A stretch of DNA of 26,747 nucleotides from a virus. Below, one piece after another: positions 8,291-24,572 of this stretch. Made by a program: the position numbers and the translations under genes. Within the stretch, counting starts at the first letter, position 1. Every line of letters starts with the position of its first letter. The notes under the pieces were generated by a model that was given only the letters and a program-made list of their open reading frames with translations, ran no database searches and had not been told where the DNA came from. The stretch lies in IMG/VR virus record IMGVR_UViG_3300001450_000220, positions 1 to 26,747 of that record; one strand, 5' to 3'.

Positions 8291-9253
8291 ATGGTAACAC
8301 CTTTTTCATTAGAAGAACAATTTAGTGGCGTTAGGAATATAGCTCAAGAAAAATCAAGACAAAGAATGTTTGATAATCAGGCTGTAGAAGCTACTAATGA
8401 GTTAAAAGAAAAAATTGAAAAAATGCAAGCTAAAATCAAAAAACAAGGTGGTCTTTTTGCAAAATTTGGGAAAAATGCAGGTTTAATAAAAACATTAACT
8501 AGCATAGCTTTAAGTGCTATTCCTGGTGTTGGTCCAGCTGCAGCTCTTGCTATGAACGCAGCTGATTTAAGAAAAACACAAAATTTAAAAAAACAACAAA
8601 TTAAAGATGTTAAAAAAATGAGAACTGCTCCTAGCGCAAAATATAAAGGAACATTTTTAGAAAATTATCTTACAGGCGGTTTAATGAGTTCTCAATCTCA
8701 AGTAGGCAAATCCTTAGAATCACAAAAACAAATGGGTGCAATTATTGGTGGTTTATCTTTAATTCCTGGTTTAGTAGAAGTTGCTCAAGGAATACCATTT
8801 GCAGAAATAGCTGCTAAAGAAGCGGGTAAAAAAGCAGGAAATGTTGCTATAAACAATCTGCAAAATCAAACAATGAATTATATTCCTGAAGGGTTAGAAA
8901 GTGGTAAACCTTTAAATAATTTATTTGCTAATATAGAGCAAAATATAATGAATGCACCTTCTCGTAGATTTCAAGCTGCAGGTGAATCAATAGTAGGTAA
9001 AAGTGGTTTAGAGTCTATATCAAGTAGCTCAGCTGGCATGCAATCTAGTGCTTTTTCAAATAAAATTGCAGATTTAACAAGTAAAGTAGGAGGTATGAGT
9101 GTACCTTATACAAATGATATGTTAAAAATTAATAATTTAACAGGTCCTTTAGGCGCTGGCGCAACAACTATAGCTGAACAGTTAGCTAGACAATATTTCT
9201 CTCAAACTGAAGAAGGAAGCATGCCTCGTGCAAGTGCACCTAAGTTTTACTAA
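8291..9253 (+). CDS. putative internal virion protein, 320 aa
   Basis: The ATG follows an AAGGAG site. Residues 30-55 form a charged coiled coil. Residues about 64-92 are Ala/Gly-rich and hydrophobic (SIALSAIPGVGPAAALAMNA), with a second hydrophobic patch near 148-175. This pattern suits ejected internal core proteins, which insert into the cell envelope during DNA delivery. It is the first of four adjacent genes ending in the giant protein, as in T7-like internal core clusters. No sequence-level match to a named family is recognised. Confidence 0.5.
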   Translation: MVTPFSLEEQFSGVRNIAQEKSRQRMFDNQAVEATNELKEKIEKMQAKIKKQGGLFAKFGKNAGLIKTLTSIALSAIPGVGPAAALAMNAADLRKTQNLKKQQIKDVKKMRTAPSAKYKGTFLENYLTGGLMSSQSQVGKSLESQKQMGAIIGGLSLIPGLVEVAQGIPFAEIAAKEAGKKAGNVAINNLQNQTMNYIPEGLESGKPLNNLFANIEQNIMNAPSRRFQAAGESIVGKSGLESISSSSAGMQSSAFSNKIADLTSKVGGMSVPYTNDMLKINNLTGPLGAGATTIAEQLARQYFSQTEEGSMPRASAPKFY

Positions 9254-9275
9254 AAATTAATTTAAAAGGAAGAAT

Positions 9276-9953
9276 ATGTCATTATTAGATAGATTAATAC
9301 CTGCAGGATTCCAAAGCAATGTTTCTGCAACTTTCAGCCCTAAAACTTATGCATTAACATCAGATGAGTTTTTACCAGGGTGGGGTGAAGGAGAACATAG
9401 GTATAGAAGATTTAAAGAAATTAGAGAAATGGGCTATGAACCTACTGAAGAATTAGCTGATATTTTAATGTCTGACGAATATAAAGATAGCACCTATAAA
9501 TTAATGGATTCAGAGTTTGATAACCCAGAAAATAGCAAATATTTTGTACATAAAAGTGCCGCTTTTGGGATTAATCCTTTTTCTTCACAATCACTAGCTG
9601 AAGGTTTTAAATTAGCTGGTGTAACTGGTTACGACTCATCAATGGCTTCAACTGCAAAACTTTCTAGTCTTAGAGCTTTAGATACTGGCAGTTATGCTGG
9701 ACAAATTGCTGAACAAAGAGGTTCTTTAGCAGATACATTAGTTTCTAGAAGGCAAACAGCACAATCAGCTGGAGGTGGTTTTGCAGGTTATGGAGGCAGA
9801 GCAGCTGGGCAAGAAGCAGCTGAATTAGCATTTGAATCTGGCGTTCAAGATATTTATGGAAATGTAGGTGAGCAAAGAAGTGCAGCTATGCAAAATTTAT
9901 ATGGTCAATTAGATGATTATTCTAAACTTATTAGTCAACAACAAGGAGGTTAA
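9276..9953 (+). CDS. putative internal virion protein, 225 aa
   Basis: An AAGGAAG site precedes the ATG. The N-terminal half is acidic and helical with many aromatics. The C-terminal half (about 120-225) is Ala/Gly/Gln-rich and helical, with a Gly-rich patch (AGGGFAGYGG) and a Gln-rich end (ISQQQGG). Small Ala/Gln-rich helical proteins at this place in podovirus maps are often internal core proteins that form the ejection channel. The role is inferred from gene order and composition. The stop lies in the ribosome site region of the next gene. Confidence 0.45.
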   Translation: MSLLDRLIPAGFQSNVSATFSPKTYALTSDEFLPGWGEGEHRYRRFKEIREMGYEPTEELADILMSDEYKDSTYKLMDSEFDNPENSKYFVHKSAAFGINPFSSQSLAEGFKLAGVTGYDSSMASTAKLSSLRALDTGSYAGQIAEQRGSLADTLVSRRQTAQSAGGGFAGYGGRAAGQEAAELAFESGVQDIYGNVGEQRSAAMQNLYGQLDDYSKLISQQQGG

Positions 9954-9956
9954 TAA

Positions 9957-11759
9957 GTGGTTAAAGTATTACCTGCAGGAGCAAATGTAGATTTAGGATT
10001 AGGCAAAGACCCAATGGACAGGCTAGTTCAAACTGTTGATTTAGCTATGAAAGTTGGTGGTGCTTTTCAAAAAAATCAAGACAGAAGAAGAACTAACTCT
10101 AGCAATGAAATGAATGATTTAATGACTATGTTGACTAATGGTTCACAATTTCTTTCTGGTGATGATTATCAAAAAATTGGAAATCAAATAAAAAATGCTA
10201 CAAGTTCTGCAAGAAGCATAGGAACTCCAACATTAACTACTCAAGCTAATCTTTTAGAAAATGTTCACGAATCAATGTCACAGTCTAATACTGAGTATGA
10301 AAACTCTTTATTAACTTTTAATAATGATTTTATGAATACTGATATATTTAATCAAGCCAATTATACTGATGCAAATGGAAATCCTAACATGGCATTTTTA
10401 GATGAAATAAATGCTAAAGGTATAGATTGGTTTAATGAAACTCAATCAAAATTATCAAACTACCAAAGACAGTTATTTACTGTAGGTGCTAAAGGTGAAT
10501 TAATTCCTAAAAAAAATAATCAAGCATCAAGAAAAGCTCAAGCTGATTATCAAAAAACTCAAAATATGTTTTACAATTTATACGATTCAAGGTTAAACAA
10601 TGTTATATCTGAAGATGAATTTGTGTATATAGCTCAAAATGGTGGATTAACAAATGAGTCTTTAGACAATTACAGACAGGTTGTTCTTGAAAATGCTACT
10701 AGTAGAATAAATAATTTAGAAAGAAGCATTACTTCTAATAATAAACTTACTAGTTCTTTAAAAACAAAAAAAACTGACAAGTTGCGTATAGCTTTAAAAG
10801 ATACTGATGATGGTGAAAACGCATGGATTTTAAATTATTTAGAAGAAAATAAAGATACTTCAGACACAGAATTAAATCAAGCTCTTGATGAATACACTGC
10901 ACAAGATTATGAAGATGTGGAAAAAAACGGTGGTTTTGTTGGAGCAGACGGAGAATTTGAAGAGATGCCAGAAAAAATAAAAAGAGTGTATGATAATTTG
11001 ATAGCTGAAGCAAATAGTACTTCTATATCTTTAAATACAGAATATGACCAATTAAGAACTAGGTTTGATTTTTGGAGTCCTTTTACTTGGGATTCTAAAA
11101 ATAGCGCTAGTATAATATATCCAGGAAGTATTAAAAGTCAATTTAAAGTTGATAGTAAAGAAGAAACAGTAGAAGAAACACCAGTAGTAGAAACACCAGT
11201 AGAAGAAACCCCAATAAAAAATAATGAAAATTTAGTAGAATTAGAAAATAAAGATGATTTTCAAAAGTTAGGTATTAATATATCAGGCAATTTAACTAAA
11301 TCAAATGTAGAGCGTATAAAAGCTGAACTTATGGAAATTTTTAACAATTCAACTTCTGATACTAATTTTGTTAAATTACAATCTTTAAAAAGAGCTAATG
11401 ATGCTATAAATAAAGTAGTTCCAAAAGAGTCTGTTGAGCAGCCTGCATTAAATGAAAAACAATTAAAACAAGCAGTACCAGCATTTGCAAATTTTCAAGA
11501 CAAAACTAAAGATAAAATATCTGATATTAAAGATAAAATTAAAAATAGGAAAGCAAGTTTAGGTCGAATGACAAGCTTCAATAAAGATGTTGAAACAAAA
11601 CAAAAAAATAAACTTTCTGTAGAAATAAAATCTTTGGAAAACGAGCTTGCAAAACAACAATCTTTGCTTAACGATGTAGATATGAACACTTGGCTTAATA
11701 CAGTAGCTAATAAAAATATGGCAAAAAGAATTAAAAAAGGTCAATATTGGAAATTTTAG
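9957..11759 (+). CDS. putative internal virion protein with long helices, 600 aa
   Basis: The start is GTG 9957, supported by AAGGAGGT (9943-9950) six bases upstream. The product is hydrophilic and largely helical, Asn/Lys/Glu/Ser-rich, with coiled-coil stretches near 185-300 and 490-590. A Val/Glu/Thr/Pro linker of tandem pentapeptides (about residues 405-420) separates the two halves. It shows no membrane segment or enzyme motif. Position next to the giant protein suggests a core or ejection protein, but the family is not recognised. It also resembles a scaffold-like elongated protein. Confidence 0.45.
   Translation: MVKVLPAGANVDLGLGKDPMDRLVQTVDLAMKVGGAFQKNQDRRRTNSSNEMNDLMTMLTNGSQFLSGDDYQKIGNQIKNATSSARSIGTPTLTTQANLLENVHESMSQSNTEYENSLLTFNNDFMNTDIFNQANYTDANGNPNMAFLDEINAKGIDWFNETQSKLSNYQRQLFTVGAKGELIPKKNNQASRKAQADYQKTQNMFYNLYDSRLNNVISEDEFVYIAQNGGLTNESLDNYRQVVLENATSRINNLERSITSNNKLTSSLKTKKTDKLRIALKDTDDGENAWILNYLEENKDTSDTELNQALDEYTAQDYEDVEKNGGFVGADGEFEEMPEKIKRVYDNLIAEANSTSISLNTEYDQLRTRFDFWSPFTWDSKNSASIIYPGSIKSQFKVDSKEETVEETPVVETPVEETPIKNNENLVELENKDDFQKLGINISGNLTKSNVERIKAELMEIFNNSTSDTNFVKLQSLKRANDAINKVVPKESVEQPALNEKQLKQAVPAFANFQDKTKDKISDIKDKIKNRKASLGRMTSFNKDVETKQKNKLSVEIKSLENELAKQQSLLNDVDMNTWLNTVANKNMAKRIKKGQYWKF
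11170..11214 (+). repeat. three tandem 15-bp repeats coding V-[EV]-E-T-P
   Basis: Three in-frame 15-base units lie at 11170-11184, 11185-11199 and 11200-11214, each close to GTAGAAGAAACACCA and differing at one or two bases. They encode VEETP, VVETP and VEETP. They form a flexible, acidic, proline-spaced linker between two helical halves of the 600-residue protein. Copy number could vary by slippage without breaking the frame. Confidence 0.85.
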
Positions 11760-11779: not shown

Positions 11780-14700
11780 ATGCCATATTTAGACTACCAA
11801 AATGTTATAAAACAGGTAAGAGAACAAAACCCCAATTTAAGCAGAAGACTCCCTGATGATGATTTGTTGTATAAATATTTATATAAAAATGTAAATCCTC
11901 AACAAATGACAGGTAATCCAGACGCTGAATTTGAGCCTCCCGAAGATATATTTGAAGCAAGAAGAGAACAGCAAGAAAAGGTCCAAATACAGCAAAGACA
12001 AGACAGTAACCAAGGTAAAATTATAACTACCGATAATCCAAAAAAATGGGTTGCAGAATTTAATTTGGCAGGAGCGCTTGGAGATATATTTGACTCTAAT
12101 TATTTGCGTTACGCAGCCACTCAAGGAACTGCTGACTTAAGTAGAATGATTTTAACTGGAAAATCTGGCTATCAATTGCAAGATAAAGAAACGGGTAAAA
12201 TTATAACTCCAGAAGAATATGCTGAAGATTTAAATGTTTTTCAAGAAGTTGGAGCATGGATATTAGGTCAAGGTAATGTAGCTGATTTAGCAATTTGGGG
12301 TTTATCAGGTGGTTTGGGTAAAATTTTTACTACTACTGGAACAAAGTTAGTTGGTAAAAAGGTTGTTCCTAAAGTAGCCCTATCTGACGGTGCGCAAAAT
12401 TGGTTTCAAGATAAATGGGCTAAATCAAATGTTCAAAAATTTGCAACAAGTCAAAGGAAAAAAAATACTCCTTATTCTAATTATGTAGCAGACTGGGTTG
12501 AGGGCGCACCTGCAAGTATGGCATCTATAGGTGCTTTTAGTGCTGCCGCAGGAACTGTACATAGTGCTGTAAATCAAAGAAAAACTAATGATGATGGTAC
12601 ATCTGCATACAATCCTGAAACAGGAGCATTTGAAGGTACTGTAAGCCCAGGAAAAGTTATTTCAGAAGGTTTGTACGAAGGTATTAAAGGAACTGTATTA
12701 GGTGGAATAACTGCTGGAGTTGCTCCAGGACTTTCTAAAATGATTGGAGATGGAACAAGTAAGCTTCAAAAAAGCAACTCAAACTTTAATAAACGTCTTG
12801 CAGATTTAGCGGTAAGATTCCCAAAAACAACAGCAGGAATACCTGCAGCACCTATTGAAGGTTTTATTTTTGGTAATTTACCATATGTTATTGAAGGTGT
12901 ACCTAAAGATGAAAATGGAAACACAGATTTTGATACAGTGTGGCATGATTTTATGCATGGTACTGTTACTGTAGCTGGACTTAAAACTACAATGGGTTTA
13001 TTAGGGTCAGCTGGACAAGAGTATAAAACATACAAAAATTCTAAGAATTTGGATAAAGACATTAAAAATAATATATCCAATGAAACTATTAATAATGCAA
13101 AGAAAACTTTAAATGAAATATTACCTCCTAATGAAGTAGAAAAGTTTTTTAGAACACTTAGTAATGAAGAAAAAATAAAACTATCTAAAAAGTCATCTAT
13201 AGATTATGAGGTAGATAATTTTATTAATAATGCTGTTAGCGAAGCTCAAAAATTAAAAAAGCTAATGGAAGCTCCTGATTTTAAACTTGAAAGCTTAACT
13301 AGAGAGCAAAAAGAAAACGTACTTACTTCTTATAATACTTTACATGTAGTTAAACAAGTATTGTCAGAAAGACTTTTACCAGAAAATAACAAATCTTTTA
13401 CAGCGAACATAAAAGACTTGTACAACCAAAACAAAAGTAAAGACGCTCTTGCTTGGTCAAAACTTTCAGTAAAAGAAAAAAATAAATTTATAAAAGATAA
13501 AAAAAAGCAACTTGAATCTTTAGTAAAAAGAACAGACGAAACATTTCAATCATTTAATGATAATGTGTATAAACCTGTACATGCTAGTAAAGAAGGTCTT
13601 AAAACAAGAGCAAGAGAATTGGCTGATAAAACTAGAAATCTAGAAAAATCTAAACAAGATGAAGTTGTAAAAAGAATAAAAGCATCAAGTCTTGAAGAAA
13701 TAATAGGCTTTAATAACAAACAATTAACCAAAGCTGAAAAAATATTAAAGGAAGTTGTAGAAAGAAAAAGTCCTGAGCAGCAAATACAAAGCCTTAGAGA
13801 TGAGTTGATTGGGTTAACACTTAGCAAAAGAATGACATTACCAGAGTGGAAACAAGAAATAGAAAGTAGAGTTGTTAAGGGTAATGGGGAAGCAACTATT
13901 AAAAACCTTAGAAGTTTAAGGGATGCTACCAAAAAGTCTGGAGAACAAACAGCTGAAATTATTGATAAAGCTAACCAAGTAGACCTAGAGAAAATAAATA
14001 TTGATTCAAAAACGCCTAAAGGTGCAATAGCAAAAACTAAAGAAGGAAAGGCTAATAATCAGCTATTAAAAGAAGTTAATTTAAGTGACACAAATAAAAA
14101 AATGGCTGTTATCGGAATAGAGCAGTTTTTAAAACCAAGGAATTTAAATTCCCCAGGAAATGTTCAGAAATTATTTAAATTTTTTAAATACTTAGAAAAA
14201 AATCGTTACAATATAAATGAGGCTAATACAACTATATTTAGTAATTTTGTGATGTCTTCTAAATCTAAAGGCGGTTTAGATACTCAGAAAGCTCATGTAA
14301 TGAAGCCATACCAAGATATAGTAGCAGCTTTTTATGGCGGAAAAGCAGGAGGAGCAAAAGCTGTTGCATTTTCTGATATGTATATGGATGCTAAGGGTGT
14401 AGCTACAACACTTAGGGTACCCACAGTAGGTAAAGATAGAGCAACAATTGATACCCCAGAACAAGTTAAACTTTTTGATAAAATTGAAAGTTATGACAAA
14501 ACAGTGTCCAATACAAATCCGAGAGAAGCAAAAGCGGCTGTTGAATTGCTTTACTGGTTTGGTAGAAGAAGTACAGATGTATTGCAACACTTAAAAGTAT
14601 CAGATTTAAATATTTCAAACGGAACAATTAAATTAAGTGCAGCAAAAAAACAAGCAGGAGTAAGGGTATACTCAGAATATCCCTTAAAAGACGTATTGCC

Positions 14701-17700
14701 AAATCTTTTTAATAGACTTGTAAAGATTGCAGAAGGGAAAAACCCTAATAATATTCTTATTTCAAATAGAAGTGGAAAGATAGTTAACCACAATCCTATT
14801 ATAAAAGAAATAATGAAAGATTTAAAAATAAATTTATTTGGAGAGCAAAAAGAGTTTACAGTTAAAAGCTTTAGAAATACTATTGAAACTGATGCTTCTA
14901 GCACAAAGTTAGAATTATTTGCTACAGAACTTACTGGTCGTGGAAAAACTGTACAACAATCATATGTAGAAAAAGATTTTATTAAACAATTTAAAGAATT
15001 TAGAGATTTTAGGTTAGGTAAGAAAACTAAACAAAAAAGTCAGTTATCTGTATGGGAAGAAAAACTTAAAAAATTACAAGAATTAGGAAAACAAGAAAGA
15101 ATGACAGTAGAGCCTGGTAAACCAGTTAGGCCTGAAGCTACTCGTTCTGAAGTATCTAGATTTAAAGAAAAATTTGCTAATAAATATCCTGAATTAACAG
15201 TTGAACTAAATAAAAGTAAACTTAAAGGTGATAAAGGTGAACGTCTTCCAGAAAATGTACTAGAAACTGTTGTTGGTCTTGAAGTAAAAGTAAGACAAGG
15301 CGCTCCTATAGAGGCTGCTGTTCATGGCATGATTCACCCTATTATAAAAACATTAAGAGCTATATCTAAAACTAATAAAGGTAAAAAATTAGGCAAAGAA
15401 GCTTCAGGTCTTATGCGTGAGATTGAGCGTAGAATTGTAAAAACTAAAGAATTTAAAAAGTGGTATAAAAAATATATTACAGAAGATAAAATGAACCCTA
15501 AAGAAGCTAGAGATAGAGCTATTGAAGAAGCTACTGCTGTTAAAATGGGCGAAATTGTTTCAGGCAGGCTTGTAGATAAGACATTTTTTAACAGAATGAC
15601 TGATTGGGCTAAACGTGTATATACTAATATTAAAACATATTTTAAAGATGTAAGTGAACTTAAAGACAATGAATTATTTGACCTGTTTGGGCAAAAAATA
15701 TACAATAGAAACTTAAAAGAAATACCTTTAATGAGTTTTACTCAAGAATCAAAAGGTAAAATGCAGTTTATGACTGTTGACAAAAACATAAGTCCTAGTG
15801 ATTTAGTTGATATGGCTAAAAAACAGATAGATTTATATGCTAAACGATATAAATTAAATAAATCTAGCAAAGAAGCTTTGGTAGAACAACTATTGTTAGA
15901 GGCTGAAGTAGTAGGTAAAGATATAAATATGGTAGGCGGACCTGAAGCTGTAAAAATAATAAATGAACTTCAAAAAGTTGATTACCAAGCTATTGTAGGA
16001 AATAAAGATATTATTGAAAGATTAAAAATTAATTCTAAAATAAAACAATACAAGAAAAGTACAGATATAACATCTAAACAAGAAAAAGAATGGTTTGAGT
16101 TAAATGGGCAAACAGACGTTGTAAATGCTTCTATAGGATTGTTAAGAGATTGGAAAGATATTGTATATCAAGCTCAAGACCTTAAAGGTGCTAGACCTAA
16201 AATTAATAACGATATAGCAGAAACTTTAAACGCTAAAGATGTTAGTGGCAGAATGACCTCAACTACATTTAATAAATTAAAATTATCTGCACAATCAGGA
16301 CTTGTTGGATTTAACAGAGTAGCAAAATATTTAAAATTAGATAAACTTCATAAATGGGTTTCAACTCATTTAACTGCTGAACAAAGTCATATTGGAAGAC
16401 TGAATGGTTTTATTGCAAGAGCAGAAGGTAGAGGTTACCCTATGTTTAGTAAGGCTAGAAAACAAATATCTAAAAGCTGGAAAGCTGTTGAAGAAGTATT
16501 TGGTTTATTAGAGTCAAGTGATAAAAATGGTGCATTTAAAAGATTAAATGACCCTACAGTAGACAAAGCTGACAAAGCAAAAGCTTTGAAGTTTATTAAA
16601 AAAGCTTTTATAGTTAAGACTAAGAAAAACAAAAAAACAGGACAAACAGAGTATTTTAATGAAGGTATTAATTGGGACCCAGTAACAAAAAAAGGAACTC
16701 TTCAAGGTGAATTAATGTATTTTTTTAAAGAAGGAGTTATGAAGCATTATGTAAGAGAATTTTCTACTCTTATTGATATGCAATTTCCTAAAATTGGAGC
16801 AAGAGAAGCGTTTATAAAAGAAAATGGTATTAATTTTTTAAATAAAACTAAAAAAGGATTTTATATACCTATAAGATTTTCAGATGCGTTTGGTGAATTT
16901 TATAGCCCGCAAAGTGTGCAAAGTGCTAAAAAAATACAAAAAGTTGGTAGAGAATATGCTATAGATATGGCAAAAATAAAATACGGAGATAAATATACAA
17001 AAGCTACTACTGCAGAAAAAACTAAATTAGTAAATAAATTTTTAGAAATGGGTATAGATAGAGCTAGAATTGAGATGTATACCGCAGTTGATTTCGGGTC
17101 TGGTAAAATGACTGTTAAGAATTTAATAACTAGAAACAAATTTCAATTTGAACAAACTATTAAAGGTGAAAAAGGTGAAAAAATAAAAGTTTTTGATAAC
17201 AATTTTGAAAGTTTAATGATGCCTTACTCAACAGGAATGGCTAAGCTTCTTGCAAATATGGAATATGCGCCATGGGCTGTAGGTTTAAAAGGGTATTCAG
17301 GGACTGGTGATGTTGCAGCTATGCTTGGGCAAGCATCTAAAACTTTAGGTGTAAAAGGAAAATTTGGGCAAAAAATACAAAGAATAATCAAAGACGGTAT
17401 GATGGAAAGAACAGGGTCATCTACAACTCAAGATGTTTTACCTACAATTACTGGTATTACAAGAGAATATACAGCTACTTTAATGAGATTACAGCTTGGT
17501 GGTTTAATTCCTTTAACAGGTACTTGGAATATAATGGAGCAAAGCAAACAGATGGTAATGGCATATAAGATAATGGATGTTGCTAAAAGCTTTGTTAAAT
17601 CATTTAATTTAGCAGAAAGAATTGCTACTGAAGATGCAGGTGCTGTTTCTAGTATAGGTTTATTAGGCTATAAACCAGGTCAATTTAATTTACTTGGTAA

Positions 17701-19174
17701 AAAAGTAGAAAAAGCTACAGGTGTAAGTCAAAGATTAAGAAATGCTTCAGAGTGGCTATTTAAAAGAGGTGGTATGCCATTTACAGAATCTTTTGCTCGT
17801 ACTTGGGCTAGATTAGCTAGTGGTATGGAAATGCAAAGATTAACAGAACATTTAAATATATTACCAGAAACATCAAAAAGGCATAAATATGCTGTTGACA
17901 GGCTTAAAAGTTTTTATGAATTGTCTAATGGCGATATTGCTGTGTTAAAAAAATATGGATTAGACCCAAACCCATCAATTTTAAAAGGTAATGATGTTCC
18001 TATTGTTAAAAGAGTAATTAAAAATTCATTTAGAAAAGCAGAACTAGTAGGTAATATAAAAACTGCAGGAACTACTGTAGAATCAATGAGCGCTGGATGG
18101 ACTAATTTTAAATTAGTAAAACCTTTACTTATGTATAAAAAAATAGCTATGAGTACATCCATGAATAATATGGAGCTAATGAAATACAATCTAAAACATA
18201 AGCATTTTTTAAGAACAGGTTTATTTTTAGGTGGAACATATTTAAAAGGTGTGGCAAGAATAGCTGTGATGAAAGCTTTATTTAATCAATCTACTGCTAA
18301 TGTAGAGAATACAGATTGGTGGACATCATTTTGGGCCACTATGTATAATGGAGAATTTTTAGGTATTGGTTCAGAATTTTTAAGCCCATACAAAGAGTCA
18401 TGGTTTAGTATGCAAGACAATTTAGTAAATGAAGCTGCAATGACCCAAAACTATAAAAGAACTTTATCTTTATTGCAAGTGTTAACGCAATCTGGAGCTA
18501 ATAAAATAAATTCTGATTTTGCTAATACATTTTTTGGTGAACAGAAAATGTCTGTTGAAGATGCTGGTGTTGAATGGTTACGTTCCACTGTATCTAGTTA
18601 TAATCAATACTATAAAATTAAAAATCAATTAATGAATCCGTATAATGCTAACTCTAAACAAATTCAAGTTTGGAATAGAAATTACAACAAAAAACATTCT
18701 TTTAAAGGTCGTGAAGATTATGAAGCAACTGAGTCAAGTATGTATTTTAGAAAACTTAGAACTGTGTTTAACACAGGAACAAAACAAGAGTTTCTTGAAG
18801 AGCTTACACTAGCATATTTAGGAAAAGTTAGTGACGGGTTAGGTAAAGGATTAAGTGAGCAAGCCGCTTTAAAAGAAGCAGCTGCCATAATTAAAACAAA
18901 ATTAAAAGATTTAAACCCTATACCTTATTCTGTAGACCCTAATAATGATTATAAAATAACTCCATTTGAATCATTTTTTCTGACATTAAGTGATGAGCAT
19001 AAAAAAATAACTGCTAAAACTTACCTTGAATATTATAAAAAAATAAAAGATTATGAAAAATCTTGGCAATATTTTAAAAGAAAAAGAGGCATAGGTGACT
19101 TAATGAAAAATTTTGATTTTAAAATGGACGAAAAAGTTTTACAGTCTTATCTTAAGAAAATTAAATTAAAATAA
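11780..19174 (+). CDS. giant multidomain virion (polyvalent-type) protein with embedded tyrosine recombinase, 2464 aa
   Basis: The ATG has an AGGA site 7 bases upstream and one frame stays open for 7.4 kb. Layout: residues 1-95, charged helical start; about 95-420, Gly/Ala-rich hydrophobic segments (e.g. LYEGIKGTVLGGITAGVAPG) like membrane-active core proteins; about 430-770, charged coiled-coil-rich region. A tyrosine recombinase follows (775-1070), then a degenerate zinc-peptidase-like region (1130-1320). The last 900 residues are large helical domains with hydrophobic patches near 1900-1935 and 2150-2175. Giant proteins of this build are ejected with the genome in podoviruses (T7 gp16-type) and are called polyvalent proteins when they carry enzymes. 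The virion role is inferred from size, place and build. The gene ends 9 bases inside the opposing gene. Confidence 0.7.
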   Translation: MPYLDYQNVIKQVREQNPNLSRRLPDDDLLYKYLYKNVNPQQMTGNPDAEFEPPEDIFEARREQQEKVQIQQRQDSNQGKIITTDNPKKWVAEFNLAGALGDIFDSNYLRYAATQGTADLSRMILTGKSGYQLQDKETGKIITPEEYAEDLNVFQEVGAWILGQGNVADLAIWGLSGGLGKIFTTTGTKLVGKKVVPKVALSDGAQNWFQDKWAKSNVQKFATSQRKKNTPYSNYVADWVEGAPASMASIGAFSAAAGTVHSAVNQRKTNDDGTSAYNPETGAFEGTVSPGKVISEGLYEGIKGTVLGGITAGVAPGLSKMIGDGTSKLQKSNSNFNKRLADLAVRFPKTTAGIPAAPIEGFIFGNLPYVIEGVPKDENGNTDFDTVWHDFMHGTVTVAGLKTTMGLLGSAGQEYKTYKNSKNLDKDIKNNISNETINNAKKTLNEILPPNEVEKFFRTLSNEEKIKLSKKSSIDYEVDNFINNAVSEAQKLKKLMEAPDFKLESLTREQKENVLTSYNTLHVVKQVLSERLLPENNKSFTANIKDLYNQNKSKDALAWSKLSVKEKNKFIKDKKKQLESLVKRTDETFQSFNDNVYKPVHASKEGLKTRARELADKTRNLEKSKQDEVVKRIKASSLEEIIGFNNKQLTKAEKILKEVVERKSPEQQIQSLRDELIGLTLSKRMTLPEWKQEIESRVVKGNGEATIKNLRSLRDATKKSGEQTAEIIDKANQVDLEKINIDSKTPKGAIAKTKEGKANNQLLKEVNLSDTNKKMAVIGIEQFLKPRNLNSPGNVQKLFKFFKYLEKNRYNINEANTTIFSNFVMSSKSKGGLDTQKAHVMKPYQDIVAAFYGGKAGGAKAVAFSDMYMDAKGVATTLRVPTVGKDRATIDTPEQVKLFDKIESYDKTVSNTNPREAKAAVELLYWFGRRSTDVLQHLKVSDLNISNGTIKLSAAKKQAGVRVYSEYPLKDVLPNLFNRLVKIAEGKNPNNILISNRSGKIVNHNPIIKEIMKDLKINLFGEQKEFTVKSFRNTIETDASSTKLELFATELTGRGKTVQQSYVEKDFIKQFKEFRDFRLGKKTKQKSQLSVWEEKLKKLQELGKQERMTVEPGKPVRPEATRSEVSRFKEKFANKYPELTVELNKSKLKGDKGERLPENVLETVVGLEVKVRQGAPIEAAVHGMIHPIIKTLRAISKTNKGKKLGKEASGLMREIERRIVKTKEFKKWYKKYITEDKMNPKEARDRAIEEATAVKMGEIVSGRLVDKTFFNRMTDWAKRVYTNIKTYFKDVSELKDNELFDLFGQKIYNRNLKEIPLMSFTQESKGKMQFMTVDKNISPSDLVDMAKKQIDLYAKRYKLNKSSKEALVEQLLLEAEVVGKDINMVGGPEAVKIINELQKVDYQAIVGNKDIIERLKINSKIKQYKKSTDITSKQEKEWFELNGQTDVVNASIGLLRDWKDIVYQAQDLKGARPKINNDIAETLNAKDVSGRMTSTTFNKLKLSAQSGLVGFNRVAKYLKLDKLHKWVSTHLTAEQSHIGRLNGFIARAEGRGYPMFSKARKQISKSWKAVEEVFGLLESSDKNGAFKRLNDPTVDKADKAKALKFIKKAFIVKTKKNKKTGQTEYFNEGINWDPVTKKGTLQGELMYFFKEGVMKHYVREFSTLIDMQFPKIGAREAFIKENGINFLNKTKKGFYIPIRFSDAFGEFYSPQSVQSAKKIQKVGREYAIDMAKIKYGDKYTKATTAEKTKLVNKFLEMGIDRARIEMYTAVDFGSGKMTVKNLITRNKFQFEQTIKGEKGEKIKVFDNNFESLMMPYSTGMAKLLANMEYAPWAVGLKGYSGTGDVAAMLGQASKTLGVKGKFGQKIQRIIKDGMMERTGSSTTQDVLPTITGITREYTATLMRLQLGGLIPLTGTWNIMEQSKQMVMAYKIMDVAKSFVKSFNLAERIATEDAGAVSSIGLLGYKPGQFNLLGKKVEKATGVSQRLRNASEWLFKRGGMPFTESFARTWARLASGMEMQRLTEHLNILPETSKRHKYAVDRLKSFYELSNGDIAVLKKYGLDPNPSILKGNDVPIVKRVIKNSFRKAELVGNIKTAGTTVESMSAGWTNFKLVKPLLMYKKIAMSTSMNNMELMKYNLKHKHFLRTGLFLGGTYLKGVARIAVMKALFNQSTANVENTDWWTSFWATMYNGEFLGIGSEFLSPYKESWFSMQDNLVNEAAMTQNYKRTLSLLQVLTQSGANKINSDFANTFFGEQKMSVEDAGVEWLRSTVSSYNQYYKIKNQLMNPYNANSKQIQVWNRNYNKKHSFKGREDYEATESSMYFRKLRTVFNTGTKQEFLEELTLAYLGKVSDGLGKGLSEQAALKEAAAIIKTKLKDLNPIPYSVDPNNDYKITPFESFFLTLSDEHKKITAKTYLEYYKKIKDYEKSWQYFKRKRGIGDLMKNFDFKMDEKVLQSYLKKIKLK
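14102..14989 (+). other. embedded tyrosine recombinase domain (residues ~775-1070 of the giant protein)
   Basis: The segment starts with a helical stretch (MAVIGIEQFLKPRNL to about residue 875) that reads as a SAM-like core-binding domain. The catalytic domain follows. ArgI is R930 in FGRRSTDVLQHLKVSDL, which aligns with the usual G-x-R-x-S-E-L-x-x-L-x-W-x-D. A beta-hairpin lysine is K956 or K957 in SAAKKQAGVRV. K1029-S-F-R1032 fills the H/K-x-x-R box. ELTGRGKTVQQSYVEK ends with the nucleophile Y1062, and R1054 stands where H or W is usual. Spacing between boxes is normal for XerCD-type integrases. Five of six catalytic positions are acceptable, so activity is possible. Known chemistry for the family is strand exchange through a 3'-phosphotyrosine. 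Confidence 0.7.
15170..15740 (+). other. degenerate zinc-metallopeptidase-like region (residues ~1131-1320)
   Basis: Residues H1182-G-M-I-H1186 lie in a helix after a hydrophobic strand (APIEAAVHGMIHPIIKTL), where a zincin would have HExxH. About 63 residues later comes IEEATAVKMGEIV (E1249/E1250), a reasonable place for the third zinc ligand. A basic helical tail follows (MTDWAKRVYTNIKTYF). I recall this order from HExxH-bearing segments in other giant phage proteins. The catalytic Glu is Gly here, so peptidase activity is unlikely, though zinc binding might remain. This is a by-eye call from weak similarity. Confidence 0.4.
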
Positions 19175-19618
19175 TTCTGTTCTAGGTATTAATGCCATTT
19201 GACTAACATTAAAATCACCGCCCATTATGAGCTTTAATCTACCTTCTTTTTTAAGGTCTATTATCTTTTGTTTTAAATAATCTACACTAAATATATATCC
19301 ACCTACAATTTTTCCGTTATCAGACAGTAAGTGAATCCATATAGCAGAACCTGTAGTAGATATGCCACTAGGTTTCCCGCTACATCTTATTTCTATAGCT
19401 ATATTGCCTGTATTTTTCCATATATCTCTCTCTGTTTTTACCTCAATCATAGTGTTGCCATTTTGCAAATCTTCTACAAATTTTTCTCCCATTTGTCCAA
19501 ATTTTAAATCAAGGTCAAACTTTTTCATTTCTTCGTAATCCAATGGTATTTTCCTTCCGTCATCTGTTAATAAACTAAGGTCTCCAAAAACATCATATAT
19601 ATCAGTCAGTTTTAGCAA
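19166..19618 (-). CDS. PD-(D/E)XK superfamily nuclease, 150 aa
   Basis: The core reads FDLDLKFGQMGEKFVEDL (from about residue 34), then MIEVKTERDIWKNTGNIAIE with the E-x-K pair at about 59-61. SGISTTGSAIWIHLL follows. This is the order of a restriction-like nuclease fold: a first acidic helix, the E-x-K strand, then an N-E strand. The longest frame uses TTG 19618, which overlaps the RuvC-like gene but has no ribosome site. TTG 19543, preceded by GGAAGG, or ATG 19528 may be the true start and would still keep the whole core. It is the last gene of the leftward operon and overlaps the giant gene's 3' end. It is probably a recombination or host-DNA degradation nuclease; the specificity is unknown. 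Confidence 0.65.
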   Translation of the reverse strand: MLKLTDIYDVFGDLSLLTDDGRKIPLDYEEMKKFDLDLKFGQMGEKFVEDLQNGNTMIEVKTERDIWKNTGNIAIEIRCSGKPSGISTTGSAIWIHLLSDNGKIVGGYIFSVDYLKQKIIDLKKEGRLKLIMGGDFNVSQMALIPRTELF

Positions 19619-20099
19619 TTGCGTATTTCGCTATCATAATTGCATCAGCAGTAGCTAAAGTAGCGACTCCTTTCCATTGATATGACATATAGTTATTTGA
19701 ATTAATAAATTCTTGCGCCATTTGTTTAAGTATGTTTTTTCTTTCTTGTTTTTTCAATCCCTTTTGTACTTCGTGGTGTCTCATCCAAACGGAAGGGGTT
19801 ACATAAATAGGGATTATGTTAAATGATGCAATAACCCCCTCCCATTGGCCATAGTTTTGTCCGAAAGTAAATATCGAACTCTTACCATCATGTGGCATAG
19901 CCCATACTTTTTCTATATACAAAAACACATCTTTAGGAGAAGTATCTTGTAATATATCTTTAAATAATTCTGCCATACCTTGCACAGAATCTGGACACTT
20001 ATTCGCTCTTAATTTATTATCTTCAATAGAACATATGCCTCCAGATTTTCCTGGGTCTATACCTATATAGGTTTTAAAACGGTAATTCTTTTGTAACAT
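19602..20099 (-). CDS. RuvC-like Holliday junction resolvase, 165 aa
   Basis: The RNase H-like signature is clear: YIGIDPGKSGG with D15 on the first strand, YIEKVWAMP with E63, and TLATADAIMIAKYA with D152 in the last helix. The length is near that of RuvC (about 170). The family cuts four-way DNA junctions with two metal ions. In phages it resolves branched DNA before packaging. It overlaps the DnaB-like gene by 26 bases and the downstream nuclease by 17, so the three are co-transcribed. Only three of RuvC's four acidic residues are obvious by eye. Confidence 0.85.
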   Translation of the reverse strand: MLQKNYRFKTYIGIDPGKSGGICSIEDNKLRANKCPDSVQGMAELFKDILQDTSPKDVFLYIEKVWAMPHDGKSSIFTFGQNYGQWEGVIASFNIIPIYVTPSVWMRHHEVQKGLKKQERKNILKQMAQEFINSNNYMSYQWKGVATLATADAIMIAKYAIAKTD

Positions 20100-21420
20100 C
20101 TAGCTCCTTTGCATGCGGTATTGTCCAATTGTCATAAATAGTACAAATATCGCCATTATAGTTAAGGGTTATTTCAGAAGACTCTCCATACCTAACCTTA
20201 CTTGCAATTAGTCTAATTTCGTTTTTAGAGTGCATAGAAGGGTCAACCTTATAAGAGTAGTAAACAAAGAAAACATTCTCTGCTACCTGCTCTATAGCTC
20301 CAGATTCAGCTAAGTCAGACAATTGAGGTCTTCTAGCTTCCTTAGTTCGTGATTCTAATGACCTGTTAAGCTGAGAAGCAAGTATTACTGCACATTTTGT
20401 TTCTTTAGCTAACCATTTATACTCATTACAAATACGTTCAAGTTGTAATCTTCTTTCAGTTTCTTTACCACTTGGAGTTACAAGCTGTATATAATCATCT
20501 ATAATAACGTCTGGTTCAAACTTTTTAACTTCAGATGCAGTTTTAGGTAAGTCTCTAATATTGTCAAACATAATGAATCTATCTTCACCATATATATCAG
20601 CTATTTTCCTGGAAGCTTTTTTTAGTTCTTCAATAAAACCAATATTACTTTTATCTACTATACCTTTTCTAACATCTCTATAATTAAGTCTTGGGTTTTC
20701 AATACATATTAATTTCTTAATTACTTCACTGTTAGGTAACTCTCTATTAAACATAGCTACTTTATATCCACCTTTAACAAGAGAGGCTAAGAGGTTGACA
20801 AGAAAAGTTGTCTTACCATGACCTGGTCTACCCCCAACTATTGTTATCTCTCCTCTTGTAAGCCCTCCTGCTAAACTGTCAATTTCTTTGTAACCTGTTT
20901 TAATCATCTTTTTATTACCCTCTTGCATAGTGTTAAGGGTATCAGTCATTGCTTTATCTATAGTAAACTTTTCACCAGGCCTAACTCTTATCAACTCTCC
21001 CATAAGAGAATGTGCTTCGTTTATTAGTGTGTATACATCACCACCTTTATGAAGCGCATCTTTTTTTATATTTTCTGTCGCTTCTATTGTTTTTCTAAGC
21101 AAATACTTTTCGTATATCATCTGAGCATATGGTTCCATCATACCCATACCACACACATCTCCAGTTATATCTAAAATATACGAAGTTGTTATACCATTTA
21201 AATTATCTTCATTTGTTAATGAAGCACATAAAAGAGGAATGTCTATACTTTTTCCTTCTTTAATCATTTTAGTAAGTTTGTCCCACAAATTTTTAGCCTT
21301 TATTTGTGTAAAAACTTTTCTATCTGGTATATATTGAGCTACTCTACTATATTCTTTTGGGTAAAAGATAACACTCCCTAAAACCACATCTTCTGTGGTC
21401 ACATCAGCTATCTCCTGCAT
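20074..21420 (-). CDS. dnaB-like: DnaB-family replicative helicase, 448 aa
   Basis: An N-terminal helical domain (about 1-110) is followed by a linker and a RecA-like ATPase. Walker A is GGRPGHGKTT (196-205), Walker B VIIDDYIQLV (305-314) and the sensor ILASQLNRSLESR (346-358). The DnaB block RRPQLSDLAESGAIEQ spans 363-378, and the Arg-finger-type motif KVRYG is at 408-412. The length is usual for DnaB (about 450). It unwinds the phage replication fork as a hexamer. AAGGAG lies 6 bases before the ATG. No primase domain is fused and no DNA polymerase is seen in the window. Confidence 0.95.
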   Translation of the reverse strand: MQEIADVTTEDVVLGSVIFYPKEYSRVAQYIPDRKVFTQIKAKNLWDKLTKMIKEGKSIDIPLLCASLTNEDNLNGITTSYILDITGDVCGMGMMEPYAQMIYEKYLLRKTIEATENIKKDALHKGGDVYTLINEAHSLMGELIRVRPGEKFTIDKAMTDTLNTMQEGNKKMIKTGYKEIDSLAGGLTRGEITIVGGRPGHGKTTFLVNLLASLVKGGYKVAMFNRELPNSEVIKKLICIENPRLNYRDVRKGIVDKSNIGFIEELKKASRKIADIYGEDRFIMFDNIRDLPKTASEVKKFEPDVIIDDYIQLVTPSGKETERRLQLERICNEYKWLAKETKCAVILASQLNRSLESRTKEARRPQLSDLAESGAIEQVAENVFFVYYSYKVDPSMHSKNEIRLIASKVRYGESSEITLNYNGDICTIYDNWTIPHAKELDVTKELPF

Positions 21421-21435
21421 TTTATCTCCTTTTTT

Positions 21436-21645
21436 TTATTCTTCTTTTTGCATTTTCTTCAGTTGTTCATTTTTCATATTTATAACATGTTCATTATATT
21501 CATCAACTAATTTTTCTGTTGACACTTCACATATTTTATAAATAACACCTACATTGGTATTAATTTCTTCAAGCGGTCTACCTTTCAAATATAGACCCCA
21601 GCTATTTTCTGCTAGTATTTTTTCTAGAACTTTTTTTTCTAACAC
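21436..21645 (-). CDS. small hypothetical protein, 69 aa
   Basis: It starts at GTG 21645 with AAGGAG about 8 bases upstream, inside the end of the preceding gene (44-base overlap), and ends 15 bases before the helicase ATG. The product is acidic and helical with a charged C-terminus (MKNEQLKKMQKEE). No motif is recognised. Its place directly ahead of the helicase suggests a helicase accessory or loader-type partner, but nothing in the sequence shows this. Confidence 0.55.
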   Translation of the reverse strand: MLEKKVLEKILAENSWGLYLKGRPLEEINTNVGVIYKICEVSTEKLVDEYNEHVINMKNEQLKKMQKEE

Positions 21646-21823
21646 TAGGTTTCTCCTTCTTTATTAAATAATCTTCAAACTTTTTAGTATCTTTCTTAAA
21701 ATCTATATACTCCATAAAAGCATTAGTCAGACCCGTTATCATCTGGTTTAGACTTGACAGTTCCAGTATTAACTTTTCTATTACTGTTTGTACTTCCTTT
21801 GACGTTGGTTTTTTTCTTTTCAT
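21602..21823 (-). CDS. small helical protein, 73 aa, overlapping two neighbours
   Basis: The ATG has a GAGGT site about 8 bases upstream. The product has a long amphipathic helix (VIEKLILELSSLNQMITGL), a second segment (YIDFKKDTKKFEDYL) and a basic Lys/Arg/Ser tail. I recall small proteins with a similar IEKL...LNQ...KFEDYL build in other marine phages, but not their function. Its first 101 bases overlap the upstream gene in another frame, and its last 44 overlap the next gene. Both neighbours also have ribosome sites, so all three are kept. Confidence 0.6.
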   Translation of the reverse strand: MKRKKPTSKEVQTVIEKLILELSSLNQMITGLTNAFMEYIDFKKDTKKFEDYLIKKEKPSVRKKSSRKNTSRK

Positions 21824-21926
21824 CTTTTTTTACCTCATTTAATATTTCTTGTAATACTTTTTTTAGTTCTGATACTTCCTGTTTCAGTTTGGAAATATCG
21901 TTTTCCATATCTATTGCTCTTCCCAT
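21723..21926 (-). CDS. coiled-coil protein with disordered tail, 67 aa
   Basis: The ATG has GAGGT about 6 bases upstream and lies inside the end of the HNH gene. Residues 9-36 are a clear heptad coiled coil (ISKLKQEVSELKKVLQEIL). The remaining 30 residues are Lys/Asn/Ser/Thr-rich and probably disordered. That tail is coded by the same DNA, in another frame, as the N-terminus of the 73-residue protein, which may explain its odd composition. Function unknown; it probably forms a dimer or trimer. Confidence 0.6.
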   Translation of the reverse strand: MGRAIDMENDISKLKQEVSELKKVLQEILNEVKKDEKKKTNVKGSTNSNRKVNTGTVKSKPDDNGSD

Positions 21927-22420
21927 GCCTTACCTCTTTCTTTACGTTTGTGTGAGTGCCAATTTTGTTGCTTGGCTGTTTTTTTTCTATGACAGTTTGC
22001 GCATAGTATAATACATTTTTCGATTTCTTCTTCAATACTTTTGACCGAATATCCATGCGAAGCCATATTCGATACATCATTTCTTTTCTCTTTCGGGTTA
22101 AGATGGTGAAATTCCAGGACGATAGGGTTGCTTTCACCACAAGAAGTACAAGGATTACTAAGCTTAAATTCATAAACTAAATCTCTCCTTTCCCTTTTAT
22201 ACTTTTCAGTATTAATTTTATTACTTCTTTTATATTTTTCCCCATGTTTAAGATAATGTTTTCTAGAGTACTTATTTGTGCATTGTTTACACTTGTTACT
22301 TCTCTTATCGAGTCTCTTAATCTTCCAACTAAAATCGGATATTTTATATATTTTTTCACAATGATTGCATTTCTTAATCTTTAAACTCAAGGTTTGTGCT
22401 AATACCTGGAGCAGACTCAT
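21911..22420 (-). CDS. HNH endonuclease with N-terminal zinc finger, 169 aa
   Basis: An N-terminal four-cysteine finger (C18-x-x-C21 and C44-x-x-C47) precedes a basic linker. The HNH core has C91-x-x-C94, then VLEFHHLNP with H105/H106 as the catalytic box, N118 and C140-A-N-C143-H144. The two CxxC pairs bind a structural zinc. These are nicking or cutting enzymes; stand-alone phage copies are often homing endonucleases, while some assist packaging or restriction. The ATG at 22420 lies inside the upstream gene (47-base overlap) and has no strong ribosome site, so the start is uncertain up to about residue 15. Confidence 0.85.
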   Translation of the reverse strand: MSLLQVLAQTLSLKIKKCNHCEKIYKISDFSWKIKRLDKRSNKCKQCTNKYSRKHYLKHGEKYKRSNKINTEKYKRERRDLVYEFKLSNPCTSCGESNPIVLEFHHLNPKEKRNDVSNMASHGYSVKSIEEEIEKCIILCANCHRKKTAKQQNWHSHKRKERGKAWEEQ

Positions 22421-22736
22421 CGCTCATTGGATTTTCATTATCCTCAACCATTCCCCACATCAATACACAATAAACTATAATATCTGTAAGTCTACCCCTA
22501 ACATTCTCCCTTTGGGATTGATGCCCATCCGCATAAGCACACAATCCGTCTACATGTTTTGTCATATACGTTAACAAAACCTTCTCCCTGTTTACACCTA
22601 CAAAAGATGCAACTCTCTCAAAGTTAGCAAAAACATTATCTAAGTCTCTTGCATATTCTTTCTGGCCTGCATCTCTTGTCTCTGAGATTTTATCCATAAT
22701 ACTGCTCATAAGACTTTTCATTTCATTTCTATTCAT
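22374..22736 (-). CDS. Nmad1/DUF1599-like protein, 120 aa
   Basis: The conserved stretch runs from about residue 25 to 97: KEYARDLDNVFANFERVA, then KVLLTYMTKHVDGL, QSQRENVRGRLTDIIVY and a hydrophobic helix. This matches my memory of the DUF1599 family, named nucleotide-modification-associated domain 1, an all-helical fold related to MazG-type NTP pyrophosphatases. It may hydrolyse or handle a (modified) nucleotide. The start overlaps the end of the preceding microprotein. Conserved acidic residues are fewer than in true MazG, so the activity is not secure. Confidence 0.5.
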   Translation of the reverse strand: MNRNEMKSLMSSIMDKISETRDAGQKEYARDLDNVFANFERVASFVGVNREKVLLTYMTKHVDGLCAYADGHQSQRENVRGRLTDIIVYCVLMWGMVEDNENPMSDESAPGISTNLEFKD

Positions 22737-22875
22737 TACGCATCCTTTTGTACACTCTTGTATTAATGTATTCAGCTCCTACTATTTTACATAAAGGCCA
22801 TCCATTAGGACTTTTCTCTAATTCTTCCCTTATTTTTTGTATTTTTTTCCAAGTACTATTTTTTTTATTTTTCAT
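22729..22875 (-). CDS. small basic hypothetical protein, 48 aa
   Basis: The ATG has AAAGGA about 5 bases upstream, and the stop overlaps the ATG region of the Nmad1-like gene by 8 bases, which fits coupled translation. The product is basic (about 13 Lys/Arg), with a helix (WKKIQKIREELEKS) and a second half with GWPLCKIVGAEYI. No domain is recognised. It lies in a run of very short genes between the recombination cassette and the replication genes. Confidence 0.55.
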   Translation of the reverse strand: MKNKKNSTWKKIQKIREELEKSPNGWPLCKIVGAEYINTRVYKRMRNE

Positions 22876-22885
22876 TTTTTTCCTT

Positions 22886-22987
22886 TTAGTTTAATAAATT
22901 AATTATAAATAATATTATTACTGCCCAAATTGCAAAACTTACAACTGTTATTCCGCCCCAAGTAAAAACATTAATCCATTTTATCAT
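22886..22987 (-). CDS. 33-residue single-pass membrane microprotein
   Basis: A strong AGGAGGTC site precedes the ATG by about 5 bases and lies within the end of the zinc-ribbon gene (17-base overlap). After MIKWINVFTWGG almost the whole peptide is a membrane helix (VVSFAIWAVIILFIINLL). Membrane peptides of this size can be holin modulators, superinfection-exclusion factors or membrane anchors. Nothing here chooses between these. The ribosome site and overlap support it being real. Confidence 0.6.
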   Translation of the reverse strand: MIKWINVFTWGGITVVSFAIWAVIILFIINLLN

Positions 22988-23138
22988 CTTGACCTCCTAA
23001 TGGTAAATAACACTCGTAATATGAATCACAATCTGGACAACTGAAATTACTTACTATTCCTTCGCCTTCCTTTCCATAATCCTCATAATCATGGTCTCCT
23101 CCCCAAATCAATTCTGAACTACAATGCCAACACTGCAT
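22971..23138 (-). CDS. zinc-ribbon protein, 55 aa
   Basis: It begins MQCWHCSSELIWGGDHD and has a second knuckle SCPDCDSYYEC. The pairs C3/C6 and C34/C37 would hold one zinc, as in rubredoxin-like ribbons. I recall similar small C-W-H-C...W-G-G-D-H proteins in many phages; their function is not known to me. AAGGAG lies 6 bases before the ATG. That site can pair with the 3' strand of the upstream RNA element, so this gene is the likely target of that element. Confidence 0.75.
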   Translation of the reverse strand: MQCWHCSSELIWGGDHDYEDYGKEGEGIVSNFSCPDCDSYYECYLPLGGQDDKMD

Positions 23139-23158
23139 AATTTTCTCCTTTTAAAAAA

Positions 23159-23244
23159 GGGAGACTTGAAAGGCGGAAAAGAACTGCGGTAGAGAGGACC
23201 GCATTAAAACCCCCCATGTATTCTCACGATATACAAAGTCTCCC
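23159..23244 (-). ncRNA. structured RNA element upstream of the zinc-ribbon gene (riboswitch-like)
   Basis: On the - strand a 9-bp closing stem, GGGAGACTT (23244-23236) with AAGTCTCCC (23167-23159), encloses two hairpins. One is TGTAT/ATACA with a 9-base loop (23235-23217), directly abutting the closing stem. The other is TGCGGT/ACCGCA with a 7-base loop (23203-23185). A G6 run and a pyrimidine-rich strand lie unpaired in the junction. Immediately after the closing stem come six T and then AAAAGGAG, the ribosome site of the zinc-ribbon gene. CTCC in the stem plus the T run is complementary to that site (23145-23163), so opening the closing stem could hide it. The pairings are seen in the sequence; the regulation is inferred. 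No known riboswitch class is recognised. Confidence 0.5.
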
Positions 23245-23250
23245 ATATTA

Positions 23251-23406
23251 TTATCTTTTTATATGTCTATAAACTGTTGCTTGTGATACACCAACAATTT
23301 TACTTATTCTTCTGCCTTTCATACCAAAACCATATAAGGTGTTGATAATCAGCTCTCTAGGCCATCCTACTTTTCTGTATCTTCTTTTAGAATGGGATGT
23401 CTGCAT
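23251..23406 (-). CDS. small helix-turn-helix DNA-binding protein, 51 aa
   Basis: A strong GGAAGGAGGTG site precedes the ATG, which lies inside the last codons of the SSB-like gene (20-base overlap). The product is a single basic HTH: a first helix in GWPRELIINTLYGFGMK, then RRISKIVGVSQATVYRHIKR, matching the resolvase/Hin-type pattern G-x-S-x-x-x-I-A-x-x-x-G-V-S-x-x-T-V-Y-R. With no other domain, it is probably a small regulator or a recombination-complex accessory. It ends 6 bases before the RNA element. Its target is unknown. Confidence 0.7.
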   Translation of the reverse strand: MQTSHSKRRYRKVGWPRELIINTLYGFGMKGRRISKIVGVSQATVYRHIKR

Positions 23407-24010
23407 CTTTCTTAACACCTCCTTCCCACTGTTTTACGAATTTAACAATAAAAGGTGTTCTCTCTTCACCTTCTTTGTTTTTGTATGGTTTTCCAGCATC
23501 TATAAGTGCTACAGCAGGCGCACCATCAATATCAGTTCCTTTAAGTGGCGGTAATACTTGGACTTCAACATCTTGTCCTTTCATTTTAACCACTTTTCTA
23601 GGTATCTCTACACCGATAGTTTCACAAAACTGAAAATATCTTTTGTTGCCTGTAGAATTTGATTCAAATTTATCACCTTTTTGAGGCTCTAAGAATCTAA
23701 AAATACCATTAGACCTGTAAGTTCTACCAACATACTCTTCACCTTTAATCTCCCCATTTTTACCTTCATAGGACTGTTCTGAGTTTTTAGCATCAACAAC
23801 AAACTCGTAGTTATAAACTAAAGCCTTAAAAGTTTTACCATCTTTTGTCCACTCTACTTCTCTACTTGTTGCATTTTGCATATGACCATAAAACTCACCT
23901 CTTACATTTGGTGCGTTCTTAGGTTTTGTATCTGTCTCTTCGCCTGGAACAAAGAAACTTTCTGTATCATTTAACATGTCGTCAAACATTTTAGCTGTTT
24001 CAGTAGCCAT
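23387..24010 (-). CDS. single-stranded DNA-binding-like protein, 207 aa
   Basis: The protein is beta-rich in the middle (about 36-160), and its last residues are KKDADIPF. This is close to the D-D-D-I-P-F tail that SSB proteins use to recruit partners. An OB-fold core is plausible but cannot be proven by eye. The ATG overlaps the stop of the annealing-protein gene (TAATG), and AAGGAG precedes it. Its setting between an annealing protein and an HTH gene fits a role in coating single strands during recombination and replication. DUF669-type phage proteins are the main alternative. Confidence 0.65.
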   Translation of the reverse strand: MATETAKMFDDMLNDTESFFVPGEETDTKPKNAPNVRGEFYGHMQNATSREVEWTKDGKTFKALVYNYEFVVDAKNSEQSYEGKNGEIKGEEYVGRTYRSNGIFRFLEPQKGDKFESNSTGNKRYFQFCETIGVEIPRKVVKMKGQDVEVQVLPPLKGTDIDGAPAVALIDAGKPYKNKEGEERTPFIVKFVKQWEGGVKKDADIPF

Positions 24011-24561: not shown

Positions 24562-24572
24562 GTTTATCTCCT

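Follow-up and report, generated by a model that had tools for sequence, protein, structure and literature searches.

A tyrosine-recombinase domain within a giant, probably ejection-type protein of uncultivated podoviruses

What would a tyrosine recombinase be doing inside a giant late protein of a virus? The question is raised by IMG/VR record IMGVR_UViG_3300001450_000220, a viral record of 26,747 bases that was analysed whole and is called the window here. Its positions 11780–19174 (+) form a single uninterrupted open reading frame (ORF) of 2464 amino acids, the final gene of the plus-strand late block, on which the replication genes converge from the opposite side. An initial annotation, made from the sequence alone, had placed a complete tyrosine recombinase, core-binding plus catalytic, at 14102–14989, residues 775–1070 of the giant; the frame and the position of the segment held up. 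Searched alone against PF00589 (Phage_integrase), the segment matched over residues ~908–1037 with an expectation value (E) of 2.2e-5 and 24.7 bits, slightly below the curated Pfam cut-off of 27.1 bits, and to that extent agrees with phage integrase profiles as proposed. A PF00589 scan of the whole record returned 14501–14890 as the sole match (E 1.6e-7); with the whole 2464-residue protein as query, the recombinase domain was missed. We conclude that the tyrosine-recombinase domain in the window is real and that, on sequence grounds, only its catalytic half is secure. The catalytic domain (residues ~893–1074) stands, whereas Pfam finds nothing for the core-binding half in the window and only weak Phage_int_SAM matches in relatives (E 0.0085–0.06); with the H/W residue missing and lysine in place of the box II histidine, "complete" was too strong a word. 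The parts of the domain are listed here, A7 being an alignment of the window with 13 family members and A8 one of ten relatives, group I, defined below.

14456–15001, plus strand: tyrosine-recombinase catalytic domain, residues 893–1074 (PF00589; alignment A7; A7 profile matching XerA)
14045–14455, plus strand: putative core-binding (SAM-like) half, residues 756–892, helical in a low-confidence model
14567–14569, plus strand: R930, the box I arginine, an invariant column in A7
14645–14650, plus strand: K956/K957, the beta-hairpin lysine, placed by alignment; lysine nearly invariant in group I
14864–14875, plus strand: K1029-x-x-R1032, box II, with KxxR replacing HxxR; R1032 invariant in A7
14936–14941, plus strand: G1053/R1054, aligned with R-H of relatives; no H/W residue in the window (two alignments with relatives)
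14963–14965, plus strand: Y1062, the presumed nucleophile, nearly invariant in A7 and invariant in A8

The residues named by the annotation are thus present, and they are normally spaced, with 102 residues from the box I to the box II arginine and 30 from there to the tyrosine, a spacing that resembles those of XerD and lambda Int. The predicted conservation of the two arginines and the tyrosine among relatives was likewise found in A7, and that of the beta-hairpin lysine extends to near-invariance in group I. One assignment had to be moved: R1054, read as occupying the H/W position, sits at Y-8 and aligns with a conserved arginine beside that position in relatives, and the H/W position itself, Y-9, is G1053. 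Nine of the ten group-I relatives have histidine there. In box II, K1029 takes the place of the histidine.

The AlphaFold model of the window domain is poor (predicted local distance difference test, pLDDT, 41); the five best Foldseek hits of that model are all Cre or the Cre variant Tre, none of them significant, and a VIA-align fold comparison was uninformative. A phmmer search of the PDB with the window domain alone found no recombinase, direct HHalign comparison with four relatives was not significant, and in a leave-one-out profile hidden Markov model the domain scored no better than some shuffled copies of itself. With the latter two comparisons failing, we place the window in the family because of its PF00589 match, a phmmer match to the relative L094 (domain E 1e-5), the position of the domain within the giant, and the spacing of its catalytic residues.

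The relatives themselves were reached indirectly. Neither viral contigs nor GenBank phages yielded a relative when the window's giant or its domain served as a single query, and the 600-residue neighbour found nothing; relatives were instead reached via the window's DnaB helicase and a 1015-residue tail protein, and alignment of the giant's C-terminus (A6) then yielded 41 loci. Relatives with a single giant at the same place encode proteins of 2219, 2245 and 2261 amino acids in those read complete, and in ~25 related IMG/VR giants this place is occupied by a tyrosine-recombinase-like module. Among 26 records from the 41-locus set, eight matched PF00589, all below the cut-off, and seven of these matches (E 1e-7 to 1e-3) lie where the giant has its recombinase region; the eighth, at 2021–2087 in L065, is C-terminal in the giant and probably spurious. 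Outside the giants, no PF00589 match was found in 45 records, namely the window record and 44 others, which upholds the observation that there is no separate integrase, as far as enzymes of the PF00589 type are concerned.

The strongest evidence for a recombinase comes from group I (L055, L059, L064, L065, L066, L082, L008, L009, L012 and G013), whose members are 18–54% identical to the first sequence of A8. Both arginines and the tyrosine are present in all ten, and the lysine and histidine in nearly all. Five columns are invariant (R, E, G, R and Y), four of them being the box I arginine, the glutamate, the box II arginine and the tyrosine; glycine, lysine and histidine columns are nearly so. 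As read from the alignment, these conserved columns are a recombinase active site; in A7 as in A8, little besides the catalytic residues is conserved. A profile of 14 sequences with the window first matched archaeal XerA at E 3.2e-12, followed mostly by other tyrosine recombinases, and recovered L093, which had been left out of it, at E 3e-12. Structural comparison, proposed as a check, succeeded for a relative and not for the window's own poor model: the AlphaFold2 model of the L055 domain (pLDDT 72.7) superposes on XerA (4a8e) with a VIA-align Z of 11.3, and every one of the 50 structures shown by VIA-align has the tyrosine-recombinase or topoisomerase IB fold; Foldseek E-values for this model were weak (best 0.04, Cre).

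Other members depart from this pattern. In a second type, comprising the window, L078, L063, L076, L094 and L041, the box I arginine is kept, and the C-terminal half (box II and tyrosine) has degenerated in L094 and L041. A third type (L088, L089 and L095) has a canonical HxxR box II. In L095, residues 990–1103 include a canonical TPHTIRH box II and a replaced tyrosine (QRRKE), and this module is probably a dead copy, to judge by its motifs. Group II (L056, L057, L069, L079, L090, L092 and the split lineages described below) has lost the box I arginine, keeping the box II arginine and, mostly, the histidine and tyrosine.

What kind of protein carries this domain? The giant and its surroundings comprise the following.

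11780–19174, plus strand: giant, probably ejection-type, polyvalent-like protein, 2464 amino acids (ORF; relatives ~20–26% identical in the N and C parts)
12056–12907, plus strand: N-terminal conserved part, residues 93–376 (tblastn match to relative L008)
17147–19099, plus strand: C-terminal region, residues 1790–2440, the most conserved in the family (alignment A6, which found the 41 loci)
8291–11759, plus strand: three upstream ORFs (320, 225 and 600 amino acids) in the place of podoviral internal or ejection proteins, an order common to relatives

Residues 93–376 contain Gly/Ala-rich hydrophobic stretches, judged by eye to be of membrane type. Neither Pfam nor PHROG gave a convincing match of the giant to T7 gp14, gp15 or gp16, and the three upstream ORFs had no convincing family match; gene order is what places the giant among ejection-type proteins. 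In a relative, terminase, portal and head protein are encoded on the giant's strand, and its terminase resembles those of the podoviral Zobellviridae (~25% identity). Because of this gene order, the shared strand and the terminase similarity, we infer that the giant is packaged and ejected; in this uncultivated podovirus group, it is probably a polyvalent-like protein of ejection type. As in phage polyvalent proteins, a large multidomain protein adjoins virion genes in the window and its relatives. The large proteins of the cultured Zobellviridae MEP401 and P12053L have no recombinase module.

A second recurrent element accompanies the recombinase. Of 25 non-redundant single-ORF giants bearing the module, 23 have a zincin-like HExxH motif after the recombinase region (for example at residue 1073 in L009, 1061 in L082 and 1138 in L055), against 0.011 expected per giant by chance; L093 has none. 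The window has a degenerate form.

15323–15337, plus strand: degenerate zincin motif HGMIH, residues 1182–1186, where relatives have HExxH (motif comparison)

No profile match to a zincin domain was obtained in the giants, so the evidence is at the level of the motif. In injected polyvalent proteins, zincin-like peptidases recur as a processing element (Iyer et al. 2017, PMC5512222). In L002, L003, L005, L006, L007, L010, L011, L014 and L032, a split gene with two adjacent ORFs, ~1200 and ~1020 amino acids long, takes the place of the single giant. Neither ORF of the split lineages has HExxH, and the gene break may stand in for a protease cut.

In a tree of the giants' C-termini, full catalytic sets occur in both main clades. 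The giants of L041 (3938–7258) and G013 (represented by L039/L047/L045) are 62% identical before the module, 83% after it and ~20% within it, an apparent cassette replacement inside the giant gene. In L071 (7010–11875) and L073 (7013–11875), the giants are 1620 amino acids long and have neither the recombinase nor the HExxH module; L071 aligns along the C-terminal part, skipping the recombinase/HExxH stretch, and is sister to the module-bearing L066 with support of 100/100. Since this sister has both parts, L071 and L073 represent secondary loss of the module. Because of the tree distribution, the L041/G013 swap and the L071 loss, the module is judged old in the family, exchangeable and dispensable.

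Genome ends bear on what the enzyme could act upon. Exact end overlaps of 77 bp and 74 bp occur in G013 (45462 bp) and G041 (48014 bp), and end repeats of varying extent are shared by G003, G001, G027, G035 and G038. The breakpoints differ among records, and G013 is cut inside the giant gene. The ends suggest circular or terminally redundant genomes of 44–49 kb, which would offer a substrate for circularisation.

We tentatively prefer an explanation that, as a whole, falls a little short of being probable: an ejection-type, polyvalent-like protein bearing an Xer/Cre-type cassette that would act on incoming DNA, with a zincin that is degenerate in the window. The giant would be packaged in the virion and accompany the DNA into the cell. 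Where HExxH is intact, the zincin would cut the polypeptide and free the recombinase part, which would then, ahead of all gene expression, break and rejoin the phage DNA as it comes in. Its likeliest job would be to circularise a terminally redundant genome or to resolve multimers; rapid integration, also proposed by the annotation, is the least supported role, given the lack of a separate integrase, the lack of a tRNA gene in the window and the late, structural type of the protein. More doubtful is the bolder statement that a widespread uncultivated podovirus lineage packages an exchangeable recombinase cassette with a freeing protease in one giant, delivers an active site-specific recombinase with its DNA, processes the genome before transcription and swaps the cassette for specificity.

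Several observations weigh against the preferred explanation. The window lacks the H/W residue (an accessory catalytic residue, variable in the superfamily), its zincin-like motif has lost the glutamate, and it sits on a long branch with an unsure tree position. Well-supported branches of the tree force at least three changes of the state in which the box I arginine is lost, and loss of the whole module in L071/L073 makes it dispensable. The 77- and 74-bp end overlaps may be assembly artefacts and were set aside for that reason. A search of the window for a dif-like 28-mer reached 20/28 at best (shuffles reach 21), and one for core-type palindromic sites with 11-bp arms gave nothing above chance. 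A cultured member of the giant family was looked for and none was found.

The main rival, foreseen in the annotation as a DNA-binding-only alternative, is that a former recombinase survives only to bind or pack DNA in the virion core, or is delivered as a DNA-binding protein. The repeated loss of the box I arginine while the box II arginine and histidine persist, the degenerate box II and tyrosine of L094 and L041, and the missing H/W residue of the window all favour it, as does the precedent of SPbeta MrpR (YopR), a recombinase-fold repressor without recombinase activity (PMC10516654). Yet binding alone needs none of the catalytic residues, and ten group-I members and the window keep both arginines and the tyrosine amid wide divergence; at the family level, such conservation across very diverged sequences favours chemistry over mere DNA binding. 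The window in particular retains R930 and R1032, and so does not show an MrpR-type loss of a catalytic arginine. We consider this rival rather unlikely overall; group II and perhaps the window are compatible with it, group I is not.

Less likely again is a role other than site-specific recombination of phage DNA, in which the domain would act as a swivel of the topoisomerase IB kind or, as an effector, on host DNA (host dif, plasmids). Fold matches include topoisomerase IB (Z up to 9.2), box II of the window reads K-x-x-R, as in poxvirus topoisomerase IB, and no recombination site was found in the window; polyvalent proteins also often bear host-directed domains (PMC5512222). The best profile and fold matches, however, are to Xer/Int, and no topoisomerase IB-specific domain was found in the giants. 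It is very improbable that an ordinary temperate-phage integrase gene joined a structural gene and now works in lysogeny: the absence of any other PF00589-type integrase from the 45 records would suit such a fusion, but the module lies in a late gene across many lineages with swapping and loss, and the window has no tRNA gene. Where a temperate integrase would be a free gene with an adjoining attP, we see an internal domain of a late protein. A chance motif in a lysine-rich helical protein would account for the leave-one-out result, but is similarly improbable given the unaided PF00589 match (E 2e-5), the match to L094, the R/K/R/Y spacing, the coincidence in place with the relatives' modules and the fold of those relatives.

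Compared with known systems, the domain resembles recombinases of the Xer/Cre/lambda type (XerA, XerH, Cre) in catalytic fold, as seen in the relative's model, and in the box I arginine, lysine, box II arginine and tyrosine, with the H/W histidine likewise present in most group-I members. It differs in being internal to a protein of 2100–2900 amino acids with no known site and, in the window, in the H/W and box II positions. Like the phage polyvalent proteins (PMC5512222), of which the N4 virion RNA polymerase with its zincin-like peptidase is an example, the giant is a very large multidomain protein in a late virion block, and in most relatives a zincin-like HExxH adjoins a DNA-acting enzyme; unlike them, the whole giants yielded no Pfam large-polyvalent-protein domain. 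The words recombinase and integrase are absent from the main text of Iyer et al. 2017 (PMC5512222). Podoviral ejection proteins (T7 gp14/15/16; PMC8954989) share a gene order that puts them last in the late operon and a hydrophobic N-terminal part, and the transglycosylase of T7 gp16 is a precedent for an enzymatic domain inside an ejected protein; they differ in having no detectable sequence match and another type of enzyme. SPbeta MrpR shares a tyrosine-recombinase fold outside an integrase role, and differs in being a free repressor that has lost the box I arginine and other catalytic residues, where many members here keep both arginines and the tyrosine.

With the corrections given above, the claim for the window stands and is broader than first stated: a tyrosine recombinase is associated, at the level of a family, with a giant ejection-type protein. 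The parts are of known kinds; a search of open-access literature gave no description of their combination. Phages are known to inject RNA polymerases, ADP-ribosyltransferases, peptidases and peptidoglycan hydrolases, and no report of a tyrosine recombinase as an injected phage protein was found in that same literature, which is a part of the whole. Ejection of the giant, if it occurs, would bring the enzyme to the DNA just as infection begins, when circularisation or protection is needed, and the HExxH pairing together with its absence from split genes suggests how such giants could be processed. The intact group-I domains are suitable for expression and testing now.

The early module of the window, at 19166–25394 (-), encodes a RuvC-like Holliday junction resolvase, a DnaB-like helicase, a Sak-like annealing protein and a Cas4-like exonuclease, a homologous-recombination set that could join DNA ends alone. 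In addition, a 169-residue ORF at 21911–22420 (-), which overlaps other short ORFs, resembles an HNH endonuclease with CxxC pairs.

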